From an uncultured Oscillospiraceae bacterium (GTDB lineage: Bacteria; Bacillota; Clostridia; Oscillospirales; Oscillospiraceae), in the NCBI GenBank assembly GCA_947630785.1, contig CANRIW010000003.1:49763-113762 (forward strand): 64,000 nucleotides of DNA, read 5' to 3'. The translations under genes and the position numbers were made by a program. Below, piece after piece: positions 49,287 through 61,483 of the stretch. Position 1 is the first letter of the stretch. Each line of letters opens with the position of its first letter. The notes under the pieces are model-generated. The model searched no databases and was not told the DNA's origin. It saw nothing but the letters and a program-made list of their open reading frames with translations.

Positions 49287-50924
49287 TCAGCGCAGCCGCA
49301 GCAGCTTGGCGATCTTATCCCCCTTGGGCATCAGGGACAGGTCGTCCCGGGAGATGGCCCGTGTCAGCAGCACCAGGGCGAAATAGATCACCACGCCCAC
49401 CCCCACGGCGATGACCACGCAGGCGGCATTGCCCAAGCCGGAGAGGGTCCCCGCGTCCCCAAAGGGCCCGACCCCTGCCAGCCACTTGGAGGACAGGCCG
49501 AACACCGCCCACACGGCCAGGCCCATGACGGCGGAGTTGATCACCGGCTTGACGAACACCCGGAGATAGCTCAGAGTTCCGGGCAGGAGGATCTTGATGA
49601 TCACCAGCTCCACCAGGGCGATGAGGCCGAAGCAGGCCAGGGTGCTGAACGCGGCGCCCCAAATGTTGATGGCCGGATTGCCCACCAGCACATAGTTCAT
49701 GACGATCTTCAGCGCGCATCCCGCCAGGGTGGTGACCATGGTGATGGCCGCGTGCTTGTGGGCCTGGAGGATGGCGTTGCACACCAGCATCAGGCACACA
49801 AAGATGGCCGCGAATCCCAGGATGGACAGGGTCCAGCCGGCCAGCGCCACGTCGGTGGCGGGGTAGAGCAGCCGGACGATGGGCTCCGCCAGCACGGAGA
49901 GCCCCACGCCGGCGGGGATGATCAGCAGGGCGGTGGTACGCAGGGCGGTCTCGCTGACCAGGGCGCTCTGCCGGTAGTCCTTGAGGGCCTGCGCGGCGGA
50001 TACCGCCGGAATGACGCTGGCGGTCAGGGGCGGCATAAACTGAGCGGGCAGGTTGTAGAGGGTGACCGCCTTGTCGTAGACCCCCTTCAGGGTGGCGGCG
50101 GCGTCCTCCGTCAGCCCTACCGCGTCCTGCAGGCGGCCCATGACCAGGCTGTTGTCGATCAGGGTCGCCACCGCCATCACCGAGGAGCCCAGGGTGATGG
50201 GGATGGCAAGGGAGAGCAGGGTGCGGAGGATCTGGCCCGACTCCTCGGGCGTGTCGCTGTATTTTGGGGTCTTCGCGCGATACCCCCGGTAGACGATGAA
50301 CATATACCCCGCCGCCAAAGCGCAGCCGATGGAGACTCCCACGATGGCGCCGCCGGCGGCCATGGACTCGTCCATCCCCCACCGGACCATCAGCCAGGCC
50401 AGAGACAGACCGAACACCAGCTTGCACATGGCCTCGATGATCTGGGACACGGCGGTGGGGGTCATAAGGGAGTGGCCCTGGAAATAGCCGCGCAGGGCGG
50501 ACAGGGGGCAGATGAAGAACAGGGCCGGAGCCAGGGCCAGGATGCTGTAATAGCTGCGGCTGTTGTTCATAAAGTCGGCCAGCTGGCGGGGGAACAGGAA
50601 CATGATCAGGCAGGTGATGGTGCCCAGCGTGCAGAACGCGACGAGAGAGAGGCGGAACACCTTTTGCACCTGGTTCCCCCGGCCAGTGGTGTGGGCCTCG
50701 GACACCATCTTGGACAGGGCCACCGGCAGTCCGCCGGTGGAGATGACGATGAGCAGGGCATAGATAGAGTAGGCGATATTGAAGTCGGCAAAGGCGGCGT
50801 CGCTCAGGATCCGGCCCAGGGGTATTTTATAAAGGGCGCCGATGATCTTTACGATGATGATACCGGCCGCCAGGATGGCTGCGCCGCCGAAAAATGAGTT
50901 CTTTTTGGGTTGGGAACCAGCCAT
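49287..50924 (-). CDS. MVF-family flippase, SpoVB/YabM-like
   Basis: A 545-residue membrane protein with about 14 helices of the MOP/MVF flippase superfamily, which also holds MurJ and SpoVB. KNSFFGGAAILAAGIIIVKIIGALYKIPLGRIL is the typical first helix with KI(I/L)GxxYKIPL; STGGLPVALSKMVSE and LRGYFQGHSLMTPTAVSQIIEA follow. It probably translocates lipid-linked peptidoglycan or polysaccharide precursors, perhaps in sporulation. It is upstream of mazG on the same strand. Confidence 0.88.
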   Translation of the reverse strand: MAGSQPKKNSFFGGAAILAAGIIIVKIIGALYKIPLGRILSDAAFADFNIAYSIYALLIVISTGGLPVALSKMVSEAHTTGRGNQVQKVFRLSLVAFCTLGTITCLIMFLFPRQLADFMNNSRSYYSILALAPALFFICPLSALRGYFQGHSLMTPTAVSQIIEAMCKLVFGLSLAWLMVRWGMDESMAAGGAIVGVSIGCALAAGYMFIVYRGYRAKTPKYSDTPEESGQILRTLLSLAIPITLGSSVMAVATLIDNSLVMGRLQDAVGLTEDAAATLKGVYDKAVTLYNLPAQFMPPLTASVIPAVSAAQALKDYRQSALVSETALRTTALLIIPAGVGLSVLAEPIVRLLYPATDVALAGWTLSILGFAAIFVCLMLVCNAILQAHKHAAITMVTTLAGCALKIVMNYVLVGNPAINIWGAAFSTLACFGLIALVELVIIKILLPGTLSYLRVFVKPVINSAVMGLAVWAVFGLSSKWLAGVGPFGDAGTLSGLGNAACVVIAVGVGVVIYFALVLLTRAISRDDLSLMPKGDKIAKLLRLR

Positions 50925-51241: not shown

Positions 51242-53308
51242 ATGAAATATGAATACTGGACGCTGAAGCCAGCCCCGGCCGCAGCCGACGCCGCGGCGCT
51301 GGCCGAAACAGGGCTGTCTCCCCTCTGCGCCGCCGTGCTGTGCGCCAGGGGGCATACCCGGCCCGACGAGGCCGCCCGTTTTCTCTCCTGCGGGATGGAT
51401 CGGCTCCACGACCCCTTCCTGATGAAGGACATGGACCGGGCCGCTGCCCGCGTGCGCTCCGCCCTGGCGCAAAATGAGATCATCGCCGTCTACGGCGACT
51501 ACGATGTGGACGGCATCACCGCCACCGCCCTGCTGACCGATTTCCTCACAAAGCGGGGGGGCGCGGTCATCAGCTATATCCCCGACCGGGAGGGCGAGGG
51601 CTACGGCCTGAACCGGGACGCGATCCTCCGGCTGAAGCGGCAGGAGGTGTCCCTGATCGTCACGGTGGACTGCGGCATCACCGCCGCCGCCGAGGTGGAC
51701 TACGCCCGCTCCCTGGGGCTGGACGTGGTCATCACCGACCATCACCACTGCATGGACGAGCTGCCTCCCGCCGCCGCCGTGGTAGACCCCCGCCGGAAGG
51801 ACTGCTCCTATCCCTTCAAGGAGCTGTGCGGCGTGGGGCTGGCTCTGAAGCTGGCCCTGGCCCTCACGCCGGAGGAGGAACGGGACGAGGTGTTCCGCCG
51901 ATACGGGGAGCTGGCCGCCATCGGCACCGTGGCTGACGTGATGAGCCTCACCGATGAAAACCGCGCCATCGTCCACCACGGGCTGGAGCTGCTCCGCCGC
52001 ACCAGGCGGCCCGGCCTCAGGGCCCTGCTGCGGGAGGCGGGCTGCGCCGATATGCCCCTCACCACCGTAAACGTGGGGTTCGGCCTGGCGCCCCGCATCA
52101 ACGCCGCCGGCCGGATGGGCAGGGCCGCGGTGGCCCTGGAGCTGCTGCTCACCGATATCCCCGCCCACGGGGAGGAGCTGGCCCAGACTCTGTGCAAAAT
52201 GAACCGGGACCGGCAGGCCATCGAACAGGCTATCGACCAGGAGTGCGACGCCTATCTGGAGCGTCACCCCGAGGAGACCGCCCCCGCCATCATCCTGGCC
52301 GGCGAGGGCTGGCACCAGGGGGTGGTGGGCATCGTGGCCTCCCGTCTGGCGGAAAAATACGCCTGTCCCGCCATCATGATCTCTCTAGACAAGGGGATCG
52401 GCAAGGGCTCCTGCCGCTCCTTCGGGGGGTTCCACCTGTTCCGGGCGCTGGAAAAGTGCGCCCCTCTGCTGACAGAGTACGGCGGCCACCACCTGGCGGC
52501 CGGCTTCACCATCCGGGAGGAGAACATCCCCGCCCTGAAGGAGTCCATCCTCCGGCAGGTCACCGAGTACACCGGTGGCAAACCCATGACCGCGGAGATC
52601 GACGTGGATGTGGAGATCGAACGCTGTTCCCTGCTCACTCTGCGTGAGGCGGAGGCCCTGTCCGCCCTGGAGCCCTTCGGCACCGGCAATCCCAGACCCG
52701 TGTTCCTGCTCCGCTCCGCCGCCGTGGTCTCCTGCTGCGACGTGGGGGGCGGCCGCCACCTGAAGATGAAGCTCCGGCGGGACGGCGTCACCCTGGACGC
52801 CATCTTCTTCTCCGCCAACGCCGCCGCCTGCGGGGTATCCCCCGGGGACAGGCTGGACGTGATCTTCACGTTGCAGGTCAATGAATTCCGTGGAGAGCGG
52901 ACGGTACAGCTCCAGCTGTGCGACCTGCGCCCAGCCCCCACCCAGGCCCAGCTGGAGCGGGAGCTGTACACCCGGCTCCGGGAGGGAGACGTTCTCTCCC
53001 GGTGGGAGGCGGGGCTGCTCCTCCCCGACCGGGCCGACTTCGCCCGGCTGTGGCGGCTGCTGGAGCAGCTGTGCGCCTCCGGCCCCGTCTCCGCCGGGCC
53101 CGCCTGGCTCAGGCAGGCCGCCCGGGACCCCTCCGGCCGGTGCCGCTACGGCCGCACCCTGGTCTGCCTTCATGTGATGGACGACCGGGGGCTCATCCGC
53201 TGGGAGACCTCCGGCGGAGAGGCCACGGTGACCGTCTGCCGGCCGGAGCGGAAGGTGGATCTGGAACAGGCCGCCCTCATGCGGCGGCTGCGGTCCCTGC
53301 TGGAATAG
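51242..53308 (+). CDS. recJ: Single-stranded-DNA-specific exonuclease RecJ
   Basis: A 688-residue 5'-3' ssDNA exonuclease for recombination and mismatch repair. The DHH-family motifs are GDYDVDGITATALL near residue 87, VDCGITAAAE, and TDHHHCMDELPPAAAVVDPRR near 166. The DHHA1 motif GEGWHQGVVGIVASRLAEKY and GKGSCRSFGGFHLFRALEKC follow. A C-terminal OB domain and an extra helical tail of about 110 residues complete it. RelA/SpoT follows 38 bp downstream. Confidence 0.96.
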   Translation: MKYEYWTLKPAPAAADAAALAETGLSPLCAAVLCARGHTRPDEAARFLSCGMDRLHDPFLMKDMDRAAARVRSALAQNEIIAVYGDYDVDGITATALLTDFLTKRGGAVISYIPDREGEGYGLNRDAILRLKRQEVSLIVTVDCGITAAAEVDYARSLGLDVVITDHHHCMDELPPAAAVVDPRRKDCSYPFKELCGVGLALKLALALTPEEERDEVFRRYGELAAIGTVADVMSLTDENRAIVHHGLELLRRTRRPGLRALLREAGCADMPLTTVNVGFGLAPRINAAGRMGRAAVALELLLTDIPAHGEELAQTLCKMNRDRQAIEQAIDQECDAYLERHPEETAPAIILAGEGWHQGVVGIVASRLAEKYACPAIMISLDKGIGKGSCRSFGGFHLFRALEKCAPLLTEYGGHHLAAGFTIREENIPALKESILRQVTEYTGGKPMTAEIDVDVEIERCSLLTLREAEALSALEPFGTGNPRPVFLLRSAAVVSCCDVGGGRHLKMKLRRDGVTLDAIFFSANAAACGVSPGDRLDVIFTLQVNEFRGERTVQLQLCDLRPAPTQAQLERELYTRLREGDVLSRWEAGLLLPDRADFARLWRLLEQLCASGPVSAGPAWLRQAARDPSGRCRYGRTLVCLHVMDDRGLIRWETSGGEATVTVCRPERKVDLEQAALMRRLRSLLE

Positions 53309-53346: not shown

Positions 53347-55602
53347 ATGGACATCGCTCACGAGCGTTACACCCAACTTGTAAAGCACATCCCGGCCTCC
53401 ACCAGCATGGCCGATATGGAGCGCATCCACGCCGCCTTCGAATACGCCAACGCCCACCACGGCGATCAGCTCCGCAAAAGCGGCGAGCCCTATATCATCC
53501 ACCCCATCGCCGTGGCCGAGATCGTCAATGAGCTGGAGCTGGACCCGGATTCCATCATCGCCGCCCTGCTCCACGACTGCATCGAGGACACCGACGCCAC
53601 CTATGACGAGATCGCCCGGCTGTTCGGCCAGCAGGTGGCCAATCTGGTGGACGGGGTCTCCAAGCTGACCCGAATCCAGTACACCTCCAAAGAGGACGAG
53701 CAGATGGAAAATCTGCGCAAGATGTTCATGGCCATGGCCAGGGATGTGCGGGTCATCCTCATCAAGCTGTGCGACCGGCTCCACAACATGCGCACCCTTC
53801 AGTATCAGTCCACTCCCAAACAGAAGGAGAAGGCCCTGGAGACCATGGAGATCTACGCCCCCATCGCCCACCGGCTGGGGATGCAGAAGATCAAATGGGA
53901 GCTGGAGGACCTGTCCCTTCAATACCTGGACCCGGTGGCCTACGACGAGGTGGAAAAGGAGCTGGCGGAGGTCACCTCCGCCCACGCGGAATTCCTGGCC
54001 AATATGCAGGAGCGCATCGAGAAGCGGCTGGCCGAGGAGGGCATCCAGTGCCAGGTCTACGGCCGGGTAAAACACATCTACTCCATCTACCGGAAGATGT
54101 ACGCCCAGAACAAGACCATCAAGGAGATCTTCGACCTGTACGCCTTCCGGGTCATCGTACAGGACATCCCCACCTGCTACAACGTGCTGGGCTGCATCCA
54201 CGATATGTTCAAGCCCGTGCTGGGCCGGTTCAAGGACTATATCGGCACCCCCAAGCCCAACGGCTACCAGTCCCTCCACACCACCGTCATCGGCCGGGAG
54301 GGCATCCCCTTCGAGGTGCAGATCCGCACCTGGGAGATGCACCAGACCGCCGAATACGGCGTGGCCGCCCACTGGAAATACAAGCAGGGCATGGCCAACA
54401 GACAGCTGGGCACCGAGCAGGAGTTCGAGTGGGTCCGCAAGCTGCTGGAGAGCCAGCAGGACGCCGACCCGGACGAGTTCGTCCACACCCTGCGGGTGGA
54501 CATGTTCGCCGACGAGGTGTTCGTCTTTACCCCCAACGGGGACGTGAAGTCCCTCCCCGCCGGGGCCACTCCCATCGACTTCGCCTACTCCATCCACTCC
54601 GCCGTGGGCAATCACATGACGGGGGCAAGGGTCAACGGGCGGCTGGTCACCTTCGACACGCCCCTGACCAACGGCGACATCGTGGAGATCATCACCTCCC
54701 GGTCCGCCAAGGGCCCCAGCCGGGACTGGATGAAGATCTGCAAATCCAACGAGGCCCGCAACAAGATCCGCCAGTGGTTCAAAAAGGAGCGCCGGGAGGA
54801 GAACATCGCCACCGGCCGGGCCATGTTCGAGTCGGAGCTGAAGCACGCGGGGCTGACCCTGGCCGCCGTCACCGCCTCCGACCAGGTGCTGGACTCCCTG
54901 CTGAAGCAGCTGCGCTTCGGCTCGCTGGATGAGCTGTACGCCGCCATCGGCTACGGCGGCATGTCCGCCCAGAAGGCCGCCGGCCGTATCCGGGAGGAAC
55001 TGACCCGCCAGGGCCGGCTGGAGCGCCAGCGGGCGGAGCAGGAGGCCCTCCAGGCCGCCGCTGCCGCCGCAGGGGAGGCCATCTTCCCCGCCTCCGCCAA
55101 GACCGGCCAGCCCACCGGCCAGGGCAAGGCCAGCGGCGGCATCATCGTGGAGGGGCTCAACAACTGCATGGTCAAGTTCTCCAAGTGCTGCACCCCCGTC
55201 CCCGGCGACCCGGTGGTGGGGTTCATCACCCGGGGATACGGGGTGTCCATCCACCGGCAGGACTGCCCCAACGCCGACCCCGCCCGCCGCAAGCCCGACG
55301 AGCACGGCCGCTGGGTGAAGGTGTCCTGGGCCTCCGACGCCGCCGAGGCCGCCTACCGCACCTCCCTGGACATCTCCGCCAAGGACCGGGACGGCCTGGC
55401 TCTGGATATCGCCACCGTACTGTCCGCCCAGAAGGTGAAGGTGAACAACCTCTCCGCCCGCAGCCAGCCCGACGGCTACGCCGTGGTGTTCCTGGAACTG
55501 TCGGTCAAGGACCGGGCCGAGGTCACCGCCGTGGTCAACAAGCTGTCTCAGATCCCCGGCGTATTTTTGGTGCGCCGTGCCGGCGGACAGACTTCCAACT
55601 GA
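53347..55602 (+). CDS. relA: Bifunctional (p)ppGpp synthetase/hydrolase
   Basis: A 751-residue Rel protein that makes and degrades the stringent-response alarmone. The hydrolase HD site is intact: HDCIED with His76, Asp77, Glu80 and Asp81. The synthetase domain has RFKDYIGTPKPNGYQSLHTTV near residues 294-314; the RxKD form is that of bifunctional enzymes. A TGS domain (VFTPNGDVKSLPAGATPIDFAYSIHS), a zinc-finger-like CCTPVPGDPVVGF and a C-terminal ACT domain follow. The frame is open upstream into recJ, but the ATG at 53347 has the ribosome site. The wall genes follow in the same direction. Confidence 0.97.
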   Translation: MDIAHERYTQLVKHIPASTSMADMERIHAAFEYANAHHGDQLRKSGEPYIIHPIAVAEIVNELELDPDSIIAALLHDCIEDTDATYDEIARLFGQQVANLVDGVSKLTRIQYTSKEDEQMENLRKMFMAMARDVRVILIKLCDRLHNMRTLQYQSTPKQKEKALETMEIYAPIAHRLGMQKIKWELEDLSLQYLDPVAYDEVEKELAEVTSAHAEFLANMQERIEKRLAEEGIQCQVYGRVKHIYSIYRKMYAQNKTIKEIFDLYAFRVIVQDIPTCYNVLGCIHDMFKPVLGRFKDYIGTPKPNGYQSLHTTVIGREGIPFEVQIRTWEMHQTAEYGVAAHWKYKQGMANRQLGTEQEFEWVRKLLESQQDADPDEFVHTLRVDMFADEVFVFTPNGDVKSLPAGATPIDFAYSIHSAVGNHMTGARVNGRLVTFDTPLTNGDIVEIITSRSAKGPSRDWMKICKSNEARNKIRQWFKKERREENIATGRAMFESELKHAGLTLAAVTASDQVLDSLLKQLRFGSLDELYAAIGYGGMSAQKAAGRIREELTRQGRLERQRAEQEALQAAAAAAGEAIFPASAKTGQPTGQGKASGGIIVEGLNNCMVKFSKCCTPVPGDPVVGFITRGYGVSIHRQDCPNADPARRKPDEHGRWVKVSWASDAAEAAYRTSLDISAKDRDGLALDIATVLSAQKVKVNNLSARSQPDGYAVVFLELSVKDRAEVTAVVNKLSQIPGVFLVRRAGGQTSN

Positions 55603-55620: not shown

Positions 55621-56838
55621 ATGTCCACCCCCGCGATCCAGCCGCTGCTGTTCGGCGGCGATATCAACGTATACAGCGTGGCCCGCGCCTTCCACGAGGC
55701 CTATGGCGTCAAGAGCATCGCCTACGGCATCTTCGCCGGCACCTTCCCCTGCGCCGGCAGCGCCATCATCGACTACCGCGCCTGCCCCGAGAACGAGGAC
55801 GCCGGGGCTTTCCTTCAAAATGTCAAGACCGTGGCGGCGGAGCATCCGGACAAGACGGTGCTGGTGGTGGGCTGCGGGGACAGCTATGTGAAGCTGGCGG
55901 CCCACCTGAAGGACCAGTTCCCCCCCAACGTGAAGTGCAACTACATCAGCGGCGAGATGCTGGACCGGCTCACCGACAAGGAGCAGTTTTATCAGCTCTG
56001 CGACAAATACGGCATCGACCATCCGGCCACCTTCGTGTACGAGGGGTCTATGGGCCACGGCTTCACCCTCCCCTGGGGGGCGCCCTACATCGCCAAGCCC
56101 GCCGACGGGGTGGCCTACTGGGCCACCGGCCACCGGGAGCTGAAAAAGGTGTACGTATGCCAGTCCTGGGAGGAGCTGCTGGCCGCCCTGGACCAGGTCT
56201 ACGCCGCCGGCTACCCGGGCAAAATGATCCTGCAGGAGTTCATCCCCGGGGACGACACCTATATGCGGGTGCTGACCAACTACTCCGACACCCACGGCAA
56301 GGTGAAGCTCATGTGCCTGGGCCACACTTTGCTGGAGGAGCACTCCCCCCACGGCATCGGCAACCACGCCGTCATCGTCACCGAGCACGACCAGGGCCTG
56401 AGCGACAGGATCCGGGGGATGCTGGAGGACCTGGGCTATGTGGGCTTCTCCAACTTCGACATCAAATTTGACCGGCGGGACGGGAAATACAAGGCCTTCG
56501 AGATCAACTGCCGCCAGGGGCGGAGCAACTACTATGTCACCGGGTCCGGCCACAACATCGCGGAGTACCTGGTGGGCGACCTGGTGGAGGGGAAGGACCT
56601 GCCCCTCACCGTCACGAAAGACCAGTCCCTGTGGCGGATGGTCCCTAAATTCGTGGCCTATAGATTCATCCCCAAGCGCTACCACGCCCAGATGAAGGCG
56701 CTGGTGAAGGCAGGGGCGGACCACCACTCCATGGAGTATAGCGGGGACGCCGCCCTGGGCCGCAGGATCAAGATCTGGAAAAACCACGTGGGCAACTATG
56801 TCCGCTTCAACAAGTACTGCAAAAAGCCGGAGGACTGA
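55621..56838 (+). CDS. ATP-grasp ligase resembling D-aspartate ligase (Asl type)
   Basis: A 405-residue ATP-grasp enzyme. The start GGDINVYSVARAFHEAYG, VVGCGDSYVKLA, LQEFIPGDDTYMRVL, MCLGHTLLEE followed by GIGNHAVI, and GFSNFDIKFDRRDGKYKAFEINCRQGRSNYYV (read here in parts) track the enterococcal D-aspartate ligase Aslfm as I remember it. That enzyme joins D-Asp to the side-chain amine of L-Lys in UDP-MurNAc-pentapeptide. The metal and ATP residues sit in the FEINCRQGRSN segment. The next gene is an aspartate racemase, the classic partner, and then a Mur ligase, so a peptidoglycan branch role is well supported. The exact amine acceptor is unknown. Confidence 0.8.
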   Translation: MSTPAIQPLLFGGDINVYSVARAFHEAYGVKSIAYGIFAGTFPCAGSAIIDYRACPENEDAGAFLQNVKTVAAEHPDKTVLVVGCGDSYVKLAAHLKDQFPPNVKCNYISGEMLDRLTDKEQFYQLCDKYGIDHPATFVYEGSMGHGFTLPWGAPYIAKPADGVAYWATGHRELKKVYVCQSWEELLAALDQVYAAGYPGKMILQEFIPGDDTYMRVLTNYSDTHGKVKLMCLGHTLLEEHSPHGIGNHAVIVTEHDQGLSDRIRGMLEDLGYVGFSNFDIKFDRRDGKYKAFEINCRQGRSNYYVTGSGHNIAEYLVGDLVEGKDLPLTVTKDQSLWRMVPKFVAYRFIPKRYHAQMKALVKAGADHHSMEYSGDAALGRRIKIWKNHVGNYVRFNKYCKKPED

Positions 56839-56839
56839 T

Positions 56840-57547
56840 ATGGACAGACAGGCGAAATTGGGGGTGCTGGGGGGTATGGGCCCCCAGGCCTCCCAGACCT
56901 TTTACCAGTTCGTGCTGGACCGCACCGACGCGTCCAGGGACCAGGACCACGTCCCCACCCTGATCCTGTCCGACACCGGGATGCCCGACCGGACCGCCGC
57001 CATCCTCTCCGGTCAGACGGAGGGGCTCCACGCCCGCCTGCTGGCCGACGCCAGACTGCTGGAGCAGTGCGGCTGCACCGTCCTGGCCATCCCCTGCAAC
57101 ACCTCCCACTACTTTGTGGACAGGCTCCAGGGGGAGGTGGGCGTGCCCATCCTCCACATGATCCGTGAGACCGCCAGACTGCTGGCCGCCCAGGGGAAAA
57201 AGCGCCCTGGCATCCTGGCCACCGACGGCACCATCCGGACCGGGCTCTACCAGAAGGAGTTCGCCGCCCTGGGGCTGGAGGCCGTGGCCCCTGACCCGGA
57301 CACCCAGAAGCTGGTCATGTCCATCATCTACGACGAGATCAAGCAGGGGGAAAAGGGCAGCCGGGAGAAGTTCGCCAAGATCGACAAGGCCATCCGCCGG
57401 GCGGGATGCGACTGCGCCGTGCTGGCCTGCACCGAGCTGTCGGTGTTCGCCACCTGGCACCCTCTTCCCCCCTACTACATCGACGCCATGATGGTCCTGG
57501 CTGAACAGGCCATCGCCGCCTGCGGCTATCCCCTGCGCACCATCTGA
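56840..57547 (+). CDS. Aspartate/glutamate racemase family protein (probable aspartate racemase)
   Basis: A 235-residue cofactor-independent racemase. LGVLGGMGPQASQTFYQ is the standard start, the first catalytic cysteine is in IPCNTSHYF near residue 88 and the second in CAVLACTELSVF near residue 198. The pairing with a D-aspartate-ligase-like gene 1 bp upstream points to L- to D-aspartate conversion to supply that ligase; glutamate racemase MurI is less likely. The start at 56840 overlaps the upstream region with CGGAGG in the ligase's last codons, so they are coupled. Confidence 0.86.
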   Translation: MDRQAKLGVLGGMGPQASQTFYQFVLDRTDASRDQDHVPTLILSDTGMPDRTAAILSGQTEGLHARLLADARLLEQCGCTVLAIPCNTSHYFVDRLQGEVGVPILHMIRETARLLAAQGKKRPGILATDGTIRTGLYQKEFAALGLEAVAPDPDTQKLVMSIIYDEIKQGEKGSREKFAKIDKAIRRAGCDCAVLACTELSVFATWHPLPPYYIDAMMVLAEQAIAACGYPLRTI

Positions 57548-57584
57548 CTGAATCCATTCAAAAGACGATTTGGAGGCCATGCAC

Positions 57585-59954
57585 ATGGACCTGACCCTGT
57601 ACCCCCTGAGGGAATACACCGCCCTGTTGGACCGGGAGGGGCTGCTGGCCGCCCCCCTGCCGGGAGACCTGGACCTGGACCGCGCCGTGGAGTTGGTGTC
57701 CTACAACTCCCGGGAGATGGTCCCCGGCACCCTGTTTCTCTGCAAGGGGGCCCATTTCAAGCCGGACTATCTGGCCCAGGCCGCCGAAAACGGGGCCTTC
57801 GCCTATGTCAGCGAGCGGCCCTATCCGGAGGTGGACCTGCCCTGCGTCCTGGTCAGCGACATGCGCCGGGCCATGGCCCCCATGGCGGTGAAATACTACA
57901 ACGATCCCGCCCGCCGGCTGAACGTCATCGCCGTCACCGGCACCAAGGGCAAGTCCTCCACCGCCTACTACTTGAAATATATCCTGGACGAGTACCTGGC
58001 CCCCAAGGGGGTGACCTGCGGCGTGCTGGGCTCCATCGACACCTGGGACGGGGTGGAGCGGTTCGAGTCCCACCTGACCACGCCGGAGCCCCTGGAACTG
58101 CAAAAACACTTTGCCAACGCCCTGTCCGCCGGACTGGGCTACCTGGTGATGGAGGCGTCCTCCCAGGCCCTGAAATACCACCGCACCCTGGGCACCCGGT
58201 TCGCCGCCGCCGCCTTTCTGAACATCGGCTCCGACCACATCTCCCCCATCGAGCACCCGGACTTTGACGACTATTTCCACTCCAAGCTGAAGATTTTCGC
58301 CCAGGCGTCCACCTCCTGCGTCAATCTGGACAGCGACCACGCGGACGAAATTTTGGCCGCCGCCCGCCGGGACTGCCGCCGGGTCATCACCTTCTCCCAG
58401 AAGGACCCCTCCGCCGACGTGTACGGATTCGACGTGCGTAAGCGGGGGACGGATATCATCTTCCAGGTGACCTCCCAGCGTCTCTCCAGGGAGTTCCAGC
58501 TCACCATGCCGGGGCTGTTCAACGTGGAGAACGCCCTGGCCGCCATCGCCGTGTGCGAGGCCCTAGGTATCCCTCAGCAGTGTATCTACGTGGGGCTGAT
58601 GAAGGCCCGGGTCCCCGGCCGGATGGAGGTCTACACCAACGCCAACGACACGGTCACCGCCATCGTGGACTACGCCCACAACCGCATGAGCTTTGAGACC
58701 CTGTTCCGGTCGGTACAGAAGGAGTACCCCGGCCGGCGGATCGTCACCGTGTTCGGCTGCCCCGGCAAAAAGGCCCTGGACCGCCGGCGGGACCTGGGGG
58801 AGATCTCCGGCAAATACTCCGACCTGGTGGTCCTCACCGAGGAGGACTCCGGCGAGGAGGACACCGTCTCCATCTGCAAAGAGATCGCCGGACACGTGGC
58901 GGAGCAGGGCTGTGAATATATCATCCAGCCCAACCGGGGGGAGGCCATCCGGCAGGCGGTGCTGGGCTGCGAGGTCCCCACCGTCATCCTCATCACGGGC
59001 AAGGGGGCCGAGACCCGCCAGAAGCGGGGGCTGGAGTACATCGATACCCCCTCCGACGTGGAATATGCCCAGACCTGGCTGAGGGAGTACGACGTGACCC
59101 ACCACCTGGACGGGCTGGAGAAGGCCCGCTCCCTGTCCTATGTGCTGCCCAGGCTGAAGCAGCAGGCGGGGGCCACCGTGGTGGTGAAGTACGGGGGCTC
59201 CGCCCTGGGCCCCGAGGGGGCGGTGGACTCCATCCTCCACGACGTGGCGGTGCTGCAGATGTCCGGCATCCGGGTAGTCCTGGTCCACGGGGGCGGGAAG
59301 AACATCACCGCCCTGCTGAAGCGGCTGAACGTCCCCACCCATTTTGAGAACGGCTACCGGGTCACCGACGAGGCGGCTCTGGAGTGCGCCGAGCTGGCAC
59401 TGTCCGCCCAGGTGAACAAATCCATCGTGTCCGCCCTGAACGGGCTGGACGTGTCCGCCGTGGGGGTCTCCGGCAAGGACGGGAAGCTCCTCACCGCGGA
59501 GTGCAAGGACCCCGCCCTGGGCCGGGTGGGACAGATCACAAAAGTCGATCCCCGGCTGCTGGACACCCTGCTGGGCGCGGGATTTCTCCCCGTGGTCTCC
59601 CCCATCGCCGGCAGCGAGGACGGCATAGGCTATAACTGCAACGCCGACGACGCCGCCCAGGCCGTGGCCGAGGCCCTCCACGCCAACCGGCTGGTGTTCC
59701 TCACCGACGTGGGAGGGGTGCGCATCGACAGCCGCAACCAGTCCACCGCCGTGGCCCGCATGGACGCCCAGCGGGCCCGGGAGCTGCTGGACGCCGGCCT
59801 CATCGCCGGGGGGATGGTCCCCAAGGTCACCGGCTGCCTCCACGCCCTGGATCACGGGGTGGGAGAGGTCTCCGTGCTGGACGGCACCACCGAGCACGCC
59901 CTGCTGCTGGACATGCTCCATGAGCGGGTAGCGGGCACCATCTTCACAAAATAA
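57585..59954 (+). CDS. Fusion: MurE-type Mur ligase plus acetylglutamate-kinase (ArgB)-type domain
   Basis: A 789-residue fusion. Residues about 1-500 are a MurE-like ligase: ATP loop TGTKGKSSTAYYLK (118-131), LVMEASSQALKYHR (187-200), IVDYAHNRMSFETLF (360-374). Where MurE enzymes that add DAP have DNPR, it has EEDSGEED (419-426). Residues about 528-789 are a complete amino-acid kinase: VVVKYGGSALG, LVHGGGKNI, GYRVTDEAALE, VGVSGKDGK, YNCNADDAAQA, LTDVGGVRID and GGMVPKVTG, all the acetylglutamate kinase motifs. No stop or frameshift divides them. The ATG at 57585 lies 8 bp after TTGGAGG. It probably adds a third residue other than DAP to UDP-MurNAc-dipeptide; the kinase substrate (N-acetylglutamate or a related glutamyl carboxylate) is uncertain. 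Confidence 0.88.
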   Translation: MDLTLYPLREYTALLDREGLLAAPLPGDLDLDRAVELVSYNSREMVPGTLFLCKGAHFKPDYLAQAAENGAFAYVSERPYPEVDLPCVLVSDMRRAMAPMAVKYYNDPARRLNVIAVTGTKGKSSTAYYLKYILDEYLAPKGVTCGVLGSIDTWDGVERFESHLTTPEPLELQKHFANALSAGLGYLVMEASSQALKYHRTLGTRFAAAAFLNIGSDHISPIEHPDFDDYFHSKLKIFAQASTSCVNLDSDHADEILAAARRDCRRVITFSQKDPSADVYGFDVRKRGTDIIFQVTSQRLSREFQLTMPGLFNVENALAAIAVCEALGIPQQCIYVGLMKARVPGRMEVYTNANDTVTAIVDYAHNRMSFETLFRSVQKEYPGRRIVTVFGCPGKKALDRRRDLGEISGKYSDLVVLTEEDSGEEDTVSICKEIAGHVAEQGCEYIIQPNRGEAIRQAVLGCEVPTVILITGKGAETRQKRGLEYIDTPSDVEYAQTWLREYDVTHHLDGLEKARSLSYVLPRLKQQAGATVVVKYGGSALGPEGAVDSILHDVAVLQMSGIRVVLVHGGGKNITALLKRLNVPTHFENGYRVTDEAALECAELALSAQVNKSIVSALNGLDVSAVGVSGKDGKLLTAECKDPALGRVGQITKVDPRLLDTLLGAGFLPVVSPIAGSEDGIGYNCNADDAAQAVAEALHANRLVFLTDVGGVRIDSRNQSTAVARMDAQRARELLDAGLIAGGMVPKVTGCLHALDHGVGEVSVLDGTTEHALLLDMLHERVAGTIFTK

Positions 59955-59972: not shown

Positions 59973-60003
59973 CGGTCCCTCCGGCTTGGGAGGGACCGTT
60001 TTT
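59973..60003 (+). terminator. Terminator after MurE-ArgB
   Basis: A 10-bp stem CGGTCCCTCC with GGAGGGACCG around a 6-nt loop, followed by TTTTT. It separates the fusion from the next murE. Confidence 0.9.
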
Positions 60004-60049: not shown

Positions 60050-61483
60050 ATGAAGCTGTCCCGTCTGCTGTCTGTGCTCCGTCTGCCCTGCCCCGCCGAT
60101 GTGGAGATCACCGCCCTGGCCTGCGACTCCAGAGAGGTCGGCCCCGGCGCGCTGTTCGTGGCCCTCCCCGGGGCAAAAGAGGACGGCCATGCCCACATCG
60201 ACGACGCCGTCCGGCGGGGGGCCGCCGCCGTCCTCTGCGCCCCGCCCCTGCCGGAGGGGGTGCCCGCCGTGGCCGTGGATGACCCCCGGGCCGCCCTGGG
60301 ACCTTTGGCCGCCCAGTTCTACGGCTGGCCCGCAAGGCAGATGACCCTGCTGGCCGTCACCGGCACCAAGGGCAAGACCACCACCGCCCATATGCTCCGC
60401 GCCATCCTCACCCAGGCGGGGCACACCTGCGGCATGATCGGCACCCTGGGGGCCTTCCTCGGCGATACCCTCATCGCCCCCGCCGTCAACACCACCCCGG
60501 AGCCCATCGCCCTCCACCGGACCCTTCGGCGGATGGCCGACGGGGGCTGCACCCACGTGGTCATGGAGGTGTCCTCCCAGGCCATGAAGCTCCGCCGGGT
60601 GGAGGGGGTCGACTTCGCCGCCGGACTGTTCCTCAACCTGTCCCCGGACCACATCGGCGCGTATGAGCACGCATCCTTCGACGAGTACCGGGCCTGCAAA
60701 GCCGCCCTGTTCCGCCAGTGCCGGGTGGCGGTGGGCAATCTGGCCGACCCCGCCTGGCCCGCAATGCGCTCCCAGCTCCGCCCCGGCGCCCCCGTCCTCA
60801 CCTTCGGGACGTGCTCCGGCGCCGATGTGCGCGGCGTCTCCGTCACCCCGGTTGGCCTGGCCTCCCTCCTCACCGTGGCGGGGTCGTGGTCGCCCTATGC
60901 CGTCTCCATGCCGGGGGACTTCAACGCCGCCAACGCCCTGGCCGCCATCGCCCTCTGCCGCGCCGTCGGCGTGGACGACGCCGCCGTCCGCCGGGGGCTG
61001 GCCCACGTCTCCGTACCGGGGCGGACCCAGATCTTCCCGGCCCCCGCCCCATACACCGTACTCATCGACTACGCCCACAACGGACAGTCCTTCCGGGCCC
61101 TGCTCTCCGCCCTCCGGCCCCACGTGACGGGCCGGATCATCGCCCTGTTCGGCGCGGGGGGCGACCGGCCTCCCATCCGCCGCGCCGATATGGCCCGGGC
61201 CGCCGCGGAGTTCGCCGACGCCGCCGTCCTCACCGAGGACAATCCCCGGTCCGAGGACCCCGCCGCCATCTGCGCCCGGATCGCCGCCGAAATCGGGGAC
61301 GCCATCCCCCACATCACCGTCCCCGACCGCCGGGAGGCCATCTTCGCCGCCCTGGATATGGCCCGCCCCGGCGACCTGGTGGCCCTGCTGGGCAAGGGAC
61401 ACGAGGACTACATCGAGACGAACGGCGTCCGGCGGCACTTCTCCGAGTGGGAGGTGCTGGAGGAGTATTTCGGCCGCCTATAG
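60050..61483 (+). CDS. murE: UDP-MurNAc-tripeptide synthetase MurE (meso-DAP type)
   Basis: A 477-residue Mur ligase that adds the third stem-peptide residue. The Mur N-domain has ITALACDSREVGPGALFVALPGAKEDGHAHI, the ATP loop is TGTKGKTTTAHML, and MEVSSQAMKLRRVEGVDFAAGLFLNLSPDHI, IDYAHNGQSFRALL and LGKGHEDYIE follow (read in parts). The DNPR motif in LTEDNPRSEDP indicates meso-diaminopimelate specificity. The ATG at 60050 follows AAAGGGGGAAG; an in-frame start 16 codons earlier has no ribosome site. It lies after a terminator, so it is expressed separately from the fusion. Confidence 0.93.
   Translation: MKLSRLLSVLRLPCPADVEITALACDSREVGPGALFVALPGAKEDGHAHIDDAVRRGAAAVLCAPPLPEGVPAVAVDDPRAALGPLAAQFYGWPARQMTLLAVTGTKGKTTTAHMLRAILTQAGHTCGMIGTLGAFLGDTLIAPAVNTTPEPIALHRTLRRMADGGCTHVVMEVSSQAMKLRRVEGVDFAAGLFLNLSPDHIGAYEHASFDEYRACKAALFRQCRVAVGNLADPAWPAMRSQLRPGAPVLTFGTCSGADVRGVSVTPVGLASLLTVAGSWSPYAVSMPGDFNAANALAAIALCRAVGVDDAAVRRGLAHVSVPGRTQIFPAPAPYTVLIDYAHNGQSFRALLSALRPHVTGRIIALFGAGGDRPPIRRADMARAAAEFADAAVLTEDNPRSEDPAAICARIAAEIGDAIPHITVPDRREAIFAALDMARPGDLVALLGKGHEDYIETNGVRRHFSEWEVLEEYFGRL

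Follow-up and report, generated by a model that had tools for sequence, protein, structure and literature searches.

The closest described counterpart of the locus reported here is the lysine (Lys)–D-aspartate (D-Asp) pathway of lactic acid bacteria, which comprises racD–aslA and a Lys-type MurE and includes Aslfm of Enterococcus faecium. Passages of PMC4155827 place racD and aslA in one operon in L. lactis. An ornithine (Orn)-D-Asp wall is assigned to Limosilactobacillus fermentum in part of PMC6024572, and a section of PMC8346765 gives Orn-D-Asp for L. fastidiosus and Lys-D-Asp for species in its genus, so that D-Asp-branched walls occur with both amino acids; an excerpt of PMC9781867 calls Orn-D-Asp infrequent in Bacillus. 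Here we describe a set of the same three gene kinds in 64,000 nucleotides of DNA from an uncultured Oscillospiraceae bacterium (hereafter the window; positions 49763-113762 of contig 3, CANRIW010000003.1, in assembly GCA_947630785.1), in which the MurE is fused in a single reading frame to an N-acetylglutamate kinase (NAGK, or ArgB). We propose that this set would form a second wall precursor route that places Orn, less likely Lys, at position 3 of the stem peptide and branches it with D-Asp, and that it would serve the vegetative wall, with a MurE for diaminopimelic acid (DAP) serving the spore; taken as a whole, this reading seems to us evenly poised between right and wrong.

The predicted product is of the same type as the L-Orn-D-Asp peptidoglycan of L. 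fermentum and L. fastidiosus. The Lys-D-Asp loci of lactic acid bacteria that we fetched contain no kinase fusion, whereas the window has the fusion, a DAP-type murE alongside and spoIVA in its host. The union, in one chain, of a Mur ligase with the enzyme supplying a wall amino acid has a precedent in the bifunctional MurF/alanine racemase (NCBIfam PRK11930, by family name), which differs in its ligase, in its amino acid and in making the substrate directly as opposed to several steps ahead. The wall type and the Asl-racemase-MurE set are already known, as is the joining of a supply enzyme to a different Mur ligase; a MurE-NAGK fusion with an altered arginine site was not found in the open-licence papers searched and appears to be new, and the first-pass annotation of this DNA likewise knew of no such fusion.

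The three-gene set and its MurE

The genome containing the window (G000; G-numbers are genome labels and L-numbers locus labels in this analysis) is a 2.17 Mb draft, 98.5% complete, in a genus that also holds Pseudoflavonifractor sp. An44. The features of the set are as follows.

55621-56838, plus strand: Asl-type ATP-grasp ligase, predicted D-aspartate ligase, 18 bases 3' of relA
56840-57547, plus strand: aspartate-racemase-family gene, predicted source of D-Asp, with its ATG at 56840, 1 base past the ligase stop
57585-59954 (alternative ATG 57579), plus strand: MurE-NAGK fusion, single reading frame
57579-59066, plus strand: non-DAP MurE part, residues 1-496 of the fusion, numbered from 57579
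58842-58853, plus strand: E-D-S-G motif at the place of DNPR, residues 422-425 of the fusion
59118-59951, plus strand: acetylglutamate kinase part, residues 514-791, catalytic residues retained and presumed arginine-site residues gone

The first-pass annotation had set three genes behind relA, the last joining a MurE lacking DNPR to a full kinase in one frame. All three lie where it put them and on the strand it gave, and the racemase gene starts at 56840, not at 56798. For the fusion, the start at 57585 is preferred over 57579 on the basis of its spacing from GGAGG and of the starts in relatives. Both of its parts exceed their family cut-offs, residues 35-486 matching TIGR01085 (murE) with 299.4 bits (NCBIfam cut-off 257.3) and residues 533-766 matching TIGR00761 (argB) with 228.7 bits (cut-off 151.3). 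The fusion is no assembly slip, since separate records supplied 20 distinct fused kinase domains for alignment.

The fused MurE does read T-E-[E-D-S-G] where DAP enzymes have DNPR, a motif in which, according to passages of PMC3829189, the carboxylate of DAP is held by Asn and Arg. In a tree of 113 MurE representatives (quick search, with support from the Shimodaira-Hasegawa-like approximate likelihood ratio test only), 69 non-DAP sequences form one clade (support 100) that includes enzymes of Enterococcus, Vagococcus and Limosilactobacillus together with the window's fusion, and the other side holds all 39 DNPR sequences and 5 without DNPR. Within the non-DAP clade, the second motif position is Asp in 68/69 and the fourth is something other than Arg in 68/69, while the P-loop Lys and a second Lys, which we take to be the one that is carbamylated in MurE, are present in 69/69, the window's protein included. 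Clade and motif together therefore group the fused MurE with Lys/Orn-type enzymes, and it is a predicted Lys/Orn-type (non-DAP) ligase whose choice between Lys and Orn cannot be read from the sequence.

Synthesis of a cyanophycin-like polymer was rejected, as the fused Mur part scores only 69 bits as cyanophycin synthetase versus 299 as MurE; cyanophycin synthetase unites an ATP-grasp and a Mur ligase in one chain, whereas in the window these are separate chains of one pathway. In two further Limosilactobacillus species, L. equigenerosi and L. gastricus, an Asl profile match and a non-DAP MurE occur, but the MurE is stand-alone in both loci. The L. gastricus locus (L106, 6001-8991) contains a tandem pair of non-DAP murE genes, 35% and 38% identical to the window's, whose products perhaps serve different amino acids.

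Assignment of the first gene as Asl rests on homologues and predicted fold, as its product has no Pfam match at E 0.001 and an ATP-grasp model is matched weakly by only 6/22 members of the Asl family. The protein is 34-37% identical to Vagococcus proteins whose genes are clustered with a non-DAP murE and a racemase gene, an arrangement found in four Vagococcus loci (L100, L101, L103 and L104). A profile of the family matched 17/30 chosen genomes, once each except for G329 (two) and G331 (one, split in two pieces), and 7/7 Lactobacillales genomes tested, four of which had supplied rows of the profile, leaving G331, G334 and G335 as independent ones; the walls of the Lactobacillales strains compared presumably have D-Asp bridges. 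Among 120 matches listed, two, from one source, are named D-aspartate ligase, and the other named ones are called ATP-grasp, carboxylate-amine ligase or hypothetical. The predicted structure (predicted local distance difference test 91.4) has an ATP-grasp carboxylate-amine ligase fold with PylC as its best match in the PDB (E 5e-17, TM score 0.55, 13% identity); PylC has also been solved with L-lysine-Ne-D-ornithine, in which a side-chain amine carries a D-amino acid. By homology to these proteins, the window's ligase is a predicted D-aspartate ligase.

The racemase matches asp_race (TIGR00035) with 209.0 bits against a cut-off of 93.1 and is predicted, with gene context in favour, to act on aspartate. 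It also exceeds the NCBIfam cut-off for the cysteate racemase CuyB (202.4 versus 190), which may reflect a loose cut-off or a broader enzyme; cysteate metabolism is kept as a caveat.

The Vagococcus clusters match the known racD/aslA system, and together with the common MurE clade they mark the window's set as related, within Clostridia, to the Lys/Orn-D-Asp pathway already described. An Asl-like gene lies on the same strand, at most 4 kb away, in 15/17 fused loci, and the other two (L044 and L049) are cut by contig ends upstream. Since neighbouring genes differ in L048, L055 and L058, the three genes are the unit. Together, the MurE clade, the conserved Asl-racemase-MurE set and the Vagococcus clusters back the earlier proposal of a second, non-DAP stem-peptide route with a D-Asp side-chain branch, and we are fairly confident that the set would yield a non-DAP stem carrying D-Asp. 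Four loci (L042 in G282, L061, L071 and L075) have Asl beside a non-DAP MurE and no racemase between them; D-Asp there would need another racemase.

The kinase domain and its presumed arginine site

The kinase part is homologous over its full length to NAGKs of solved structure (2bty, 2buf and 2rd5, E 1e-51 to 1e-64), which we take to be those of T. maritima, P. aeruginosa and Arabidopsis. The N-helix and the catalytic positions of these arginine-inhibited hexameric enzymes are common to the fused kinase, which differs in having lost presumed arginine-site residues and in sitting behind a MurE. The alignment compared 20 distinct fused domains with 25 stand-alone ArgBs of Clostridia, most of which come from genomes that also supplied a fused domain. 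The sets exclude the duplicates L004, L006 and L127 and the murE loci L146-L175; the stand-alone set draws on ArgBs fetched as loci, at most 30, and so leaves out the above-cut-off ArgBs of G071, G289, G308, G309, G316, G320, G321 and others. Eight positions taken as catalytic, three of them presumptively (K8, G11, G44, G45, R66, N158, D162 and K217 in E. coli numbers, placed by motif with the E. coli sequence itself not aligned), are invariant in 20/20 fused and 25/25 stand-alone domains. Passages of PMC3329491 name the other five.

For yeast NAGK, passages of PMC3329491 describe bound arginine in a site bordered by the N-helix, by helix H and by the loop that follows helix H. The Tyr of the N-helix is present in 24/24 readable stand-alone domains and in 0/20 fused domains (which have Ala in 11, Arg in 7, Leu in 1 and Lys in 1), the Glu of the C-terminal helix in 25/25 versus 2/20 (otherwise Asp 16, Ser 1, Tyr 1), and the Gly of the loop after that helix in 25/25 versus 0/20; the window's kinase has R, D and V at these positions. 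Five aligned chains of solved NAGKs, 2bty among them, retain the Glu and the Gly and have Tyr or Phe in the N-helix, and a table in PMC10464499 gives 2bty as arginine-bound. In the predicted structure of the fusion, the changed positions map to a helix at residues 512-528, a helix at 775-781 and the loop that precedes the last strand, which agrees with the location of arginine in the yeast enzyme. Because the residues at the presumed arginine site are gone from the fused domains, arginine insensitivity is predicted, and that the fused kinase has escaped arginine control is in our view a good prediction, the link between these residues and sensitivity coming from alignment position and PMC3329491; the deregulating NAGK mutations in the consulted part of PMC10464499 were not used, as their numbering could not be mapped with certainty, and PMC10454706 provided no list of residues.

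We consider it improbable that the domain is instead a regulator or scaffold that binds a metabolite or forms a NAGK ring and thereby controls or clusters the MurE part. The ring-joining N-terminal helix is kept as a helix in the model (residues 512-528) and the presumed arginine-contact residues are altered, as such a role would allow, and an accessory role would fit loss of the kinase in a nested clade (below), but a pure scaffold would have no need of eight catalytic positions that are invariant in 20/20 fused domains.

The stand-alone argB that the first-pass annotation had proposed looking for is present in the window's genome, on another contig in an argJ-argB-argD run (L002), and 17/18 distinct fused genomes searched have one above cut-off, the exception being G296, a draft metagenome-assembled genome (MAG). 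Two candidate explanations were discarded on these grounds and on the kinase tree: the fused kinase is not the sole NAGK of its genome, and it is not a recent duplicate of the host's own argB, as fused domains form a clade apart from 24 stand-alone ones. In that tree, built from 24 stand-alone and 19 fused domains, a single clade (support 100/99) holds all of the fused ones, though a program warning about the long branches that join the two groups makes the deeper root unsure. The single fused clade is retained across 52-94% identity.

Several observations weigh against our reading of the kinase. Nine loci (L013, L050-L054, L056, L057 and L059) keep the three-gene set, with a MurE 74-78% identical, and lack the kinase domain; the two of them in the MurE tree, L013 and L059, are nested in the fused clade next to the window, where they and the kinase-bearing MurE parts form one clade (support 96; L060 and L066 there are cut by contig ends), and L050-L054, L056 and L057 have the same gene order as L013 and L059 with the kinase likewise missing. 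Kinase-less relatives nested in this way make the kinase dispensable, and most simply the kinase would have been gained once and later lost in the nested group, with the three-gene set persisting. The model of the fusion has a predicted TM score of 0.51, and its local confidence is 63-73 at the C-terminal helix. Finally, a Vagococcus stand-alone ArgB (L142, outside the counts above) has neither the N-helix form nor the three arginine-site residues, so stand-alone kinases of this kind exist too. This protein, from the Vagococcus allomyrinae genome (G329), is probably a naturally arginine-insensitive kinase.

Two MurE types and sporulation

Downstream of the fusion is a second murE, so that one locus holds tandem MurEs of opposite type, a non-DAP fusion and then a DAP-type murE, an arrangement that the first-pass annotation overlooked. 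The neighbours of the set are as follows.

51242-53308, plus strand: recJ-like gene (the name is our presumption), upstream of relA
53347-55602, plus strand: relA/spoT-family gene (TIGR00691, 789 bits), upstream neighbour and inconstant companion of the module
59973-59998, no strand assigned: terminator-like inverted repeat of 10 pairs, between the fusion and the DAP-type murE
60050-61483, plus strand: DAP-type murE with DNPR (TIGR01085, 399 bits), in the DNPR clade of the tree

The scan lists the inverted repeat on the minus strand, and GTTTTTG comes next on the plus strand; a sigma-70 promoter scan at the locus predicted none. Upstream of the recJ-like gene and relA, a minus-strand gene at 49287-50924 encodes a flippase-family protein (PF01943 and PF03023; polysaccharide-synthesis/MurJ-type) that possibly belongs to the wall neighbourhood.

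The window's genome has a non-DAP MurE, a DAP MurE and SpoIVA. In a first set of 48 genomes chosen around matches, 35 have both a DNPR MurE and a non-DAP MurE (motif seen in each), and SpoIVA, counted at the family cut-off with the partial match of G171 treated as absent, was found in 33 of these 35 and not in the MAGs G303 and G307. It was found in 0/5 Clostridia or Actinomycetota genomes of this set with a single non-DAP MurE, and neither in G327, which has two non-DAP MurEs, nor in the 7 Lactobacillales. A second set of 36 further Oscillospirales genomes contains 29 with at least two MurEs, 26 of them with SpoIVA, and 7 with one MurE, a single one of which (G122) has SpoIVA. Pooled, leaving out the seven Lactobacillales and G327, spoIVA occurs in 59/64 genomes with at least two MurEs versus 1/12 with a single non-DAP MurE (Fisher p about 1e-8, a test that overstates since the genomes are related). 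DapF does not separate the groups. Within genus g45, two MurEs occur together with SpoIVA in G034 and G182, G053, G083, G109, G220, G202 and G069 have one MurE and no SpoIVA, and G240 (61% complete) has two MurEs and no SpoIVA match (p 0.08 within the genus with G240 counted).

Because SpoIVA tracks two-MurE genomes and is rare with a sole non-DAP MurE, this distribution suggests that the non-DAP MurE would serve the vegetative wall and the DAP MurE the spore, and vegetative use of the non-DAP route is in our judgement reasonably likely. The first-pass annotation had guessed the reverse, a non-DAP route for sporulation or stress, which would leave the vegetative wall to the DAP-type MurE. That proposal draws on relA, which is directly upstream in the window and lies in the fetched piece of 9/17 fused loci (tallied by hand, some other pieces being cut by contig ends), but the module is present without relA alongside in L042, L048, L055 and L058, so adjacency to relA is weak evidence for a stress role, and the counts of SpoIVA point in the opposite direction. 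We therefore regard a sporulation or stress role as very unlikely.

Not all of the data favour the division between vegetative wall and spore. The DNPR of the second MurE was seen in only 18/29 two-MurE genomes of the second set; in G156, G005 and G048 the second MurE is without DNPR and falls inside the DNPR clade, and in the remaining genomes the second murE gene was not fetched. Five genomes with two MurEs have no spoIVA match above cut-off. G122 (same order, f26 g53; 99% complete) has SpoIVA and, as the sole MurE found, a non-DAP one, and is either a real exception or an assembly gap. The six one-MurE genomes of g45, and also G034 and G182, have no Asl match, so g45 backs the two-wall idea and not D-Asp; the sole-MurE genomes of g45, with a non-DAP enzyme and no Asl match, must have a cross-bridge of another kind.

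A vegetative wall of the Lys-D-Asp type and a DAP-containing cortex are features of Lysinibacillus sphaericus, for which our literature search gave no describing passage. The division of labour predicted here between non-DAP and DAP MurEs is similar; the window differs in belonging to Clostridia, in its kinase fusion and in that the split comes from gene distribution only.

Predicted residue at position 3: ornithine or lysine

In the pathway we propose, the racemase would supply D-Asp, and the committed step to ornithine, phosphorylation of N-acetylglutamate, would fall to the fused kinase, which would run on when arginine shuts off the normal ArgB. Ordinary arginine-pathway enzymes would finish ornithine (argJ and argD-like genes flank argB in the window's genome), the MurE part would add it to UDP-N-acetylmuramic acid (UDP-MurNAc)-L-Ala-D-Glu, and Asl would then attach D-Asp to the side-chain amine as a cross-bridge. 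This route would build the vegetative wall, leaving the spore cortex to the DAP-type MurE encoded beside it.

A catalytically intact kinase that has lost presumed arginine-site residues favours the ornithine product put forward in the first-pass annotation over lysine; we lean only slightly towards ornithine at position 3. Passages of PMC3829189 describe how MurE of S. aureus secures lysine through a pool near 20 mM, compared with a Km of 0.55 mM. A MurE that depends on pool size would gain from an arginine-insensitive ornithine feed, which is the simplest reason we see for a kinase on a MurE.

The alternative is that the set makes the Lys-D-Asp stem found in Vagococcus and Enterococcus, with the kinase as an extra arginine/ornithine feed merely riding on the MurE gene. 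The named clusters that come nearest and share all three genes are those of Vagococcus, whose wall we take to be Lys-D-Asp, and the nested kinase-less group keeps the motif EEDSGEED unchanged. Arginine synthesis appears to be present in most genomes, with argG above cut-off in 27/30 genomes and argJ in 26/30 (17/18 and 16/18, respectively, among fused genomes), so the kinase could merely feed arginine. Retention of a single fused clade at 52-94% identity, with the presumed arginine-site Tyr and Gly gone in 20/20, suggests selection for a joint role, however, and an extra arginine feed would be expected to retain feedback. We consider the lysine alternative rather unlikely.

The arginine markers just given count against our reading, and three further points do so as well. 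According to passages of PMC3829189, the specificity of S. aureus MurE for L-ornithine is 400-fold below that for lysine, a preference that also speaks for the lysine alternative. The fusion implies no direct channelling, because ornithine is several steps past the kinase and a normal argB is present. In the consulted part of a gut peptidoglycan table (PMC11382707), Faecalibacterium, the sole Oscillospiraceae genus there, is listed as meso-DAP; we found no usable literature on the wall of Flavonifractor or Pseudoflavonifractor. Genomes with ornithine synthesis and no arginine synthesis were considered as a sign of wall use and set aside: G306 (fused) and G310 (kinase-less) have argJ and lack argG, but both are draft MAGs and nothing was concluded from them. 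Other gaps in the pathway concern argG in G315, where it is below cut-off, and argJ in G296, G308, G315 and G317, where it is below cut-off or missing.

In its fullest form, the ornithine reading describes a gut spore former whose own arginine-insensitive kinase would pour glutamate into ornithine for an Orn-D-Asp growth wall, with a DAP wall only in the spore, a picture that we put forward tentatively, as somewhat less likely than not. The fusion offers a way to test how bacteria ensure their supply of a wall substrate of low affinity, and the analysis predicts, for many Clostridia, a vegetative wall of non-DAP type (here with D-Asp) and a spore wall containing DAP. If true, this would change the muropeptides met by the gut host and would extend to Clostridia a two-wall pattern that we know only from Bacillus-type organisms.

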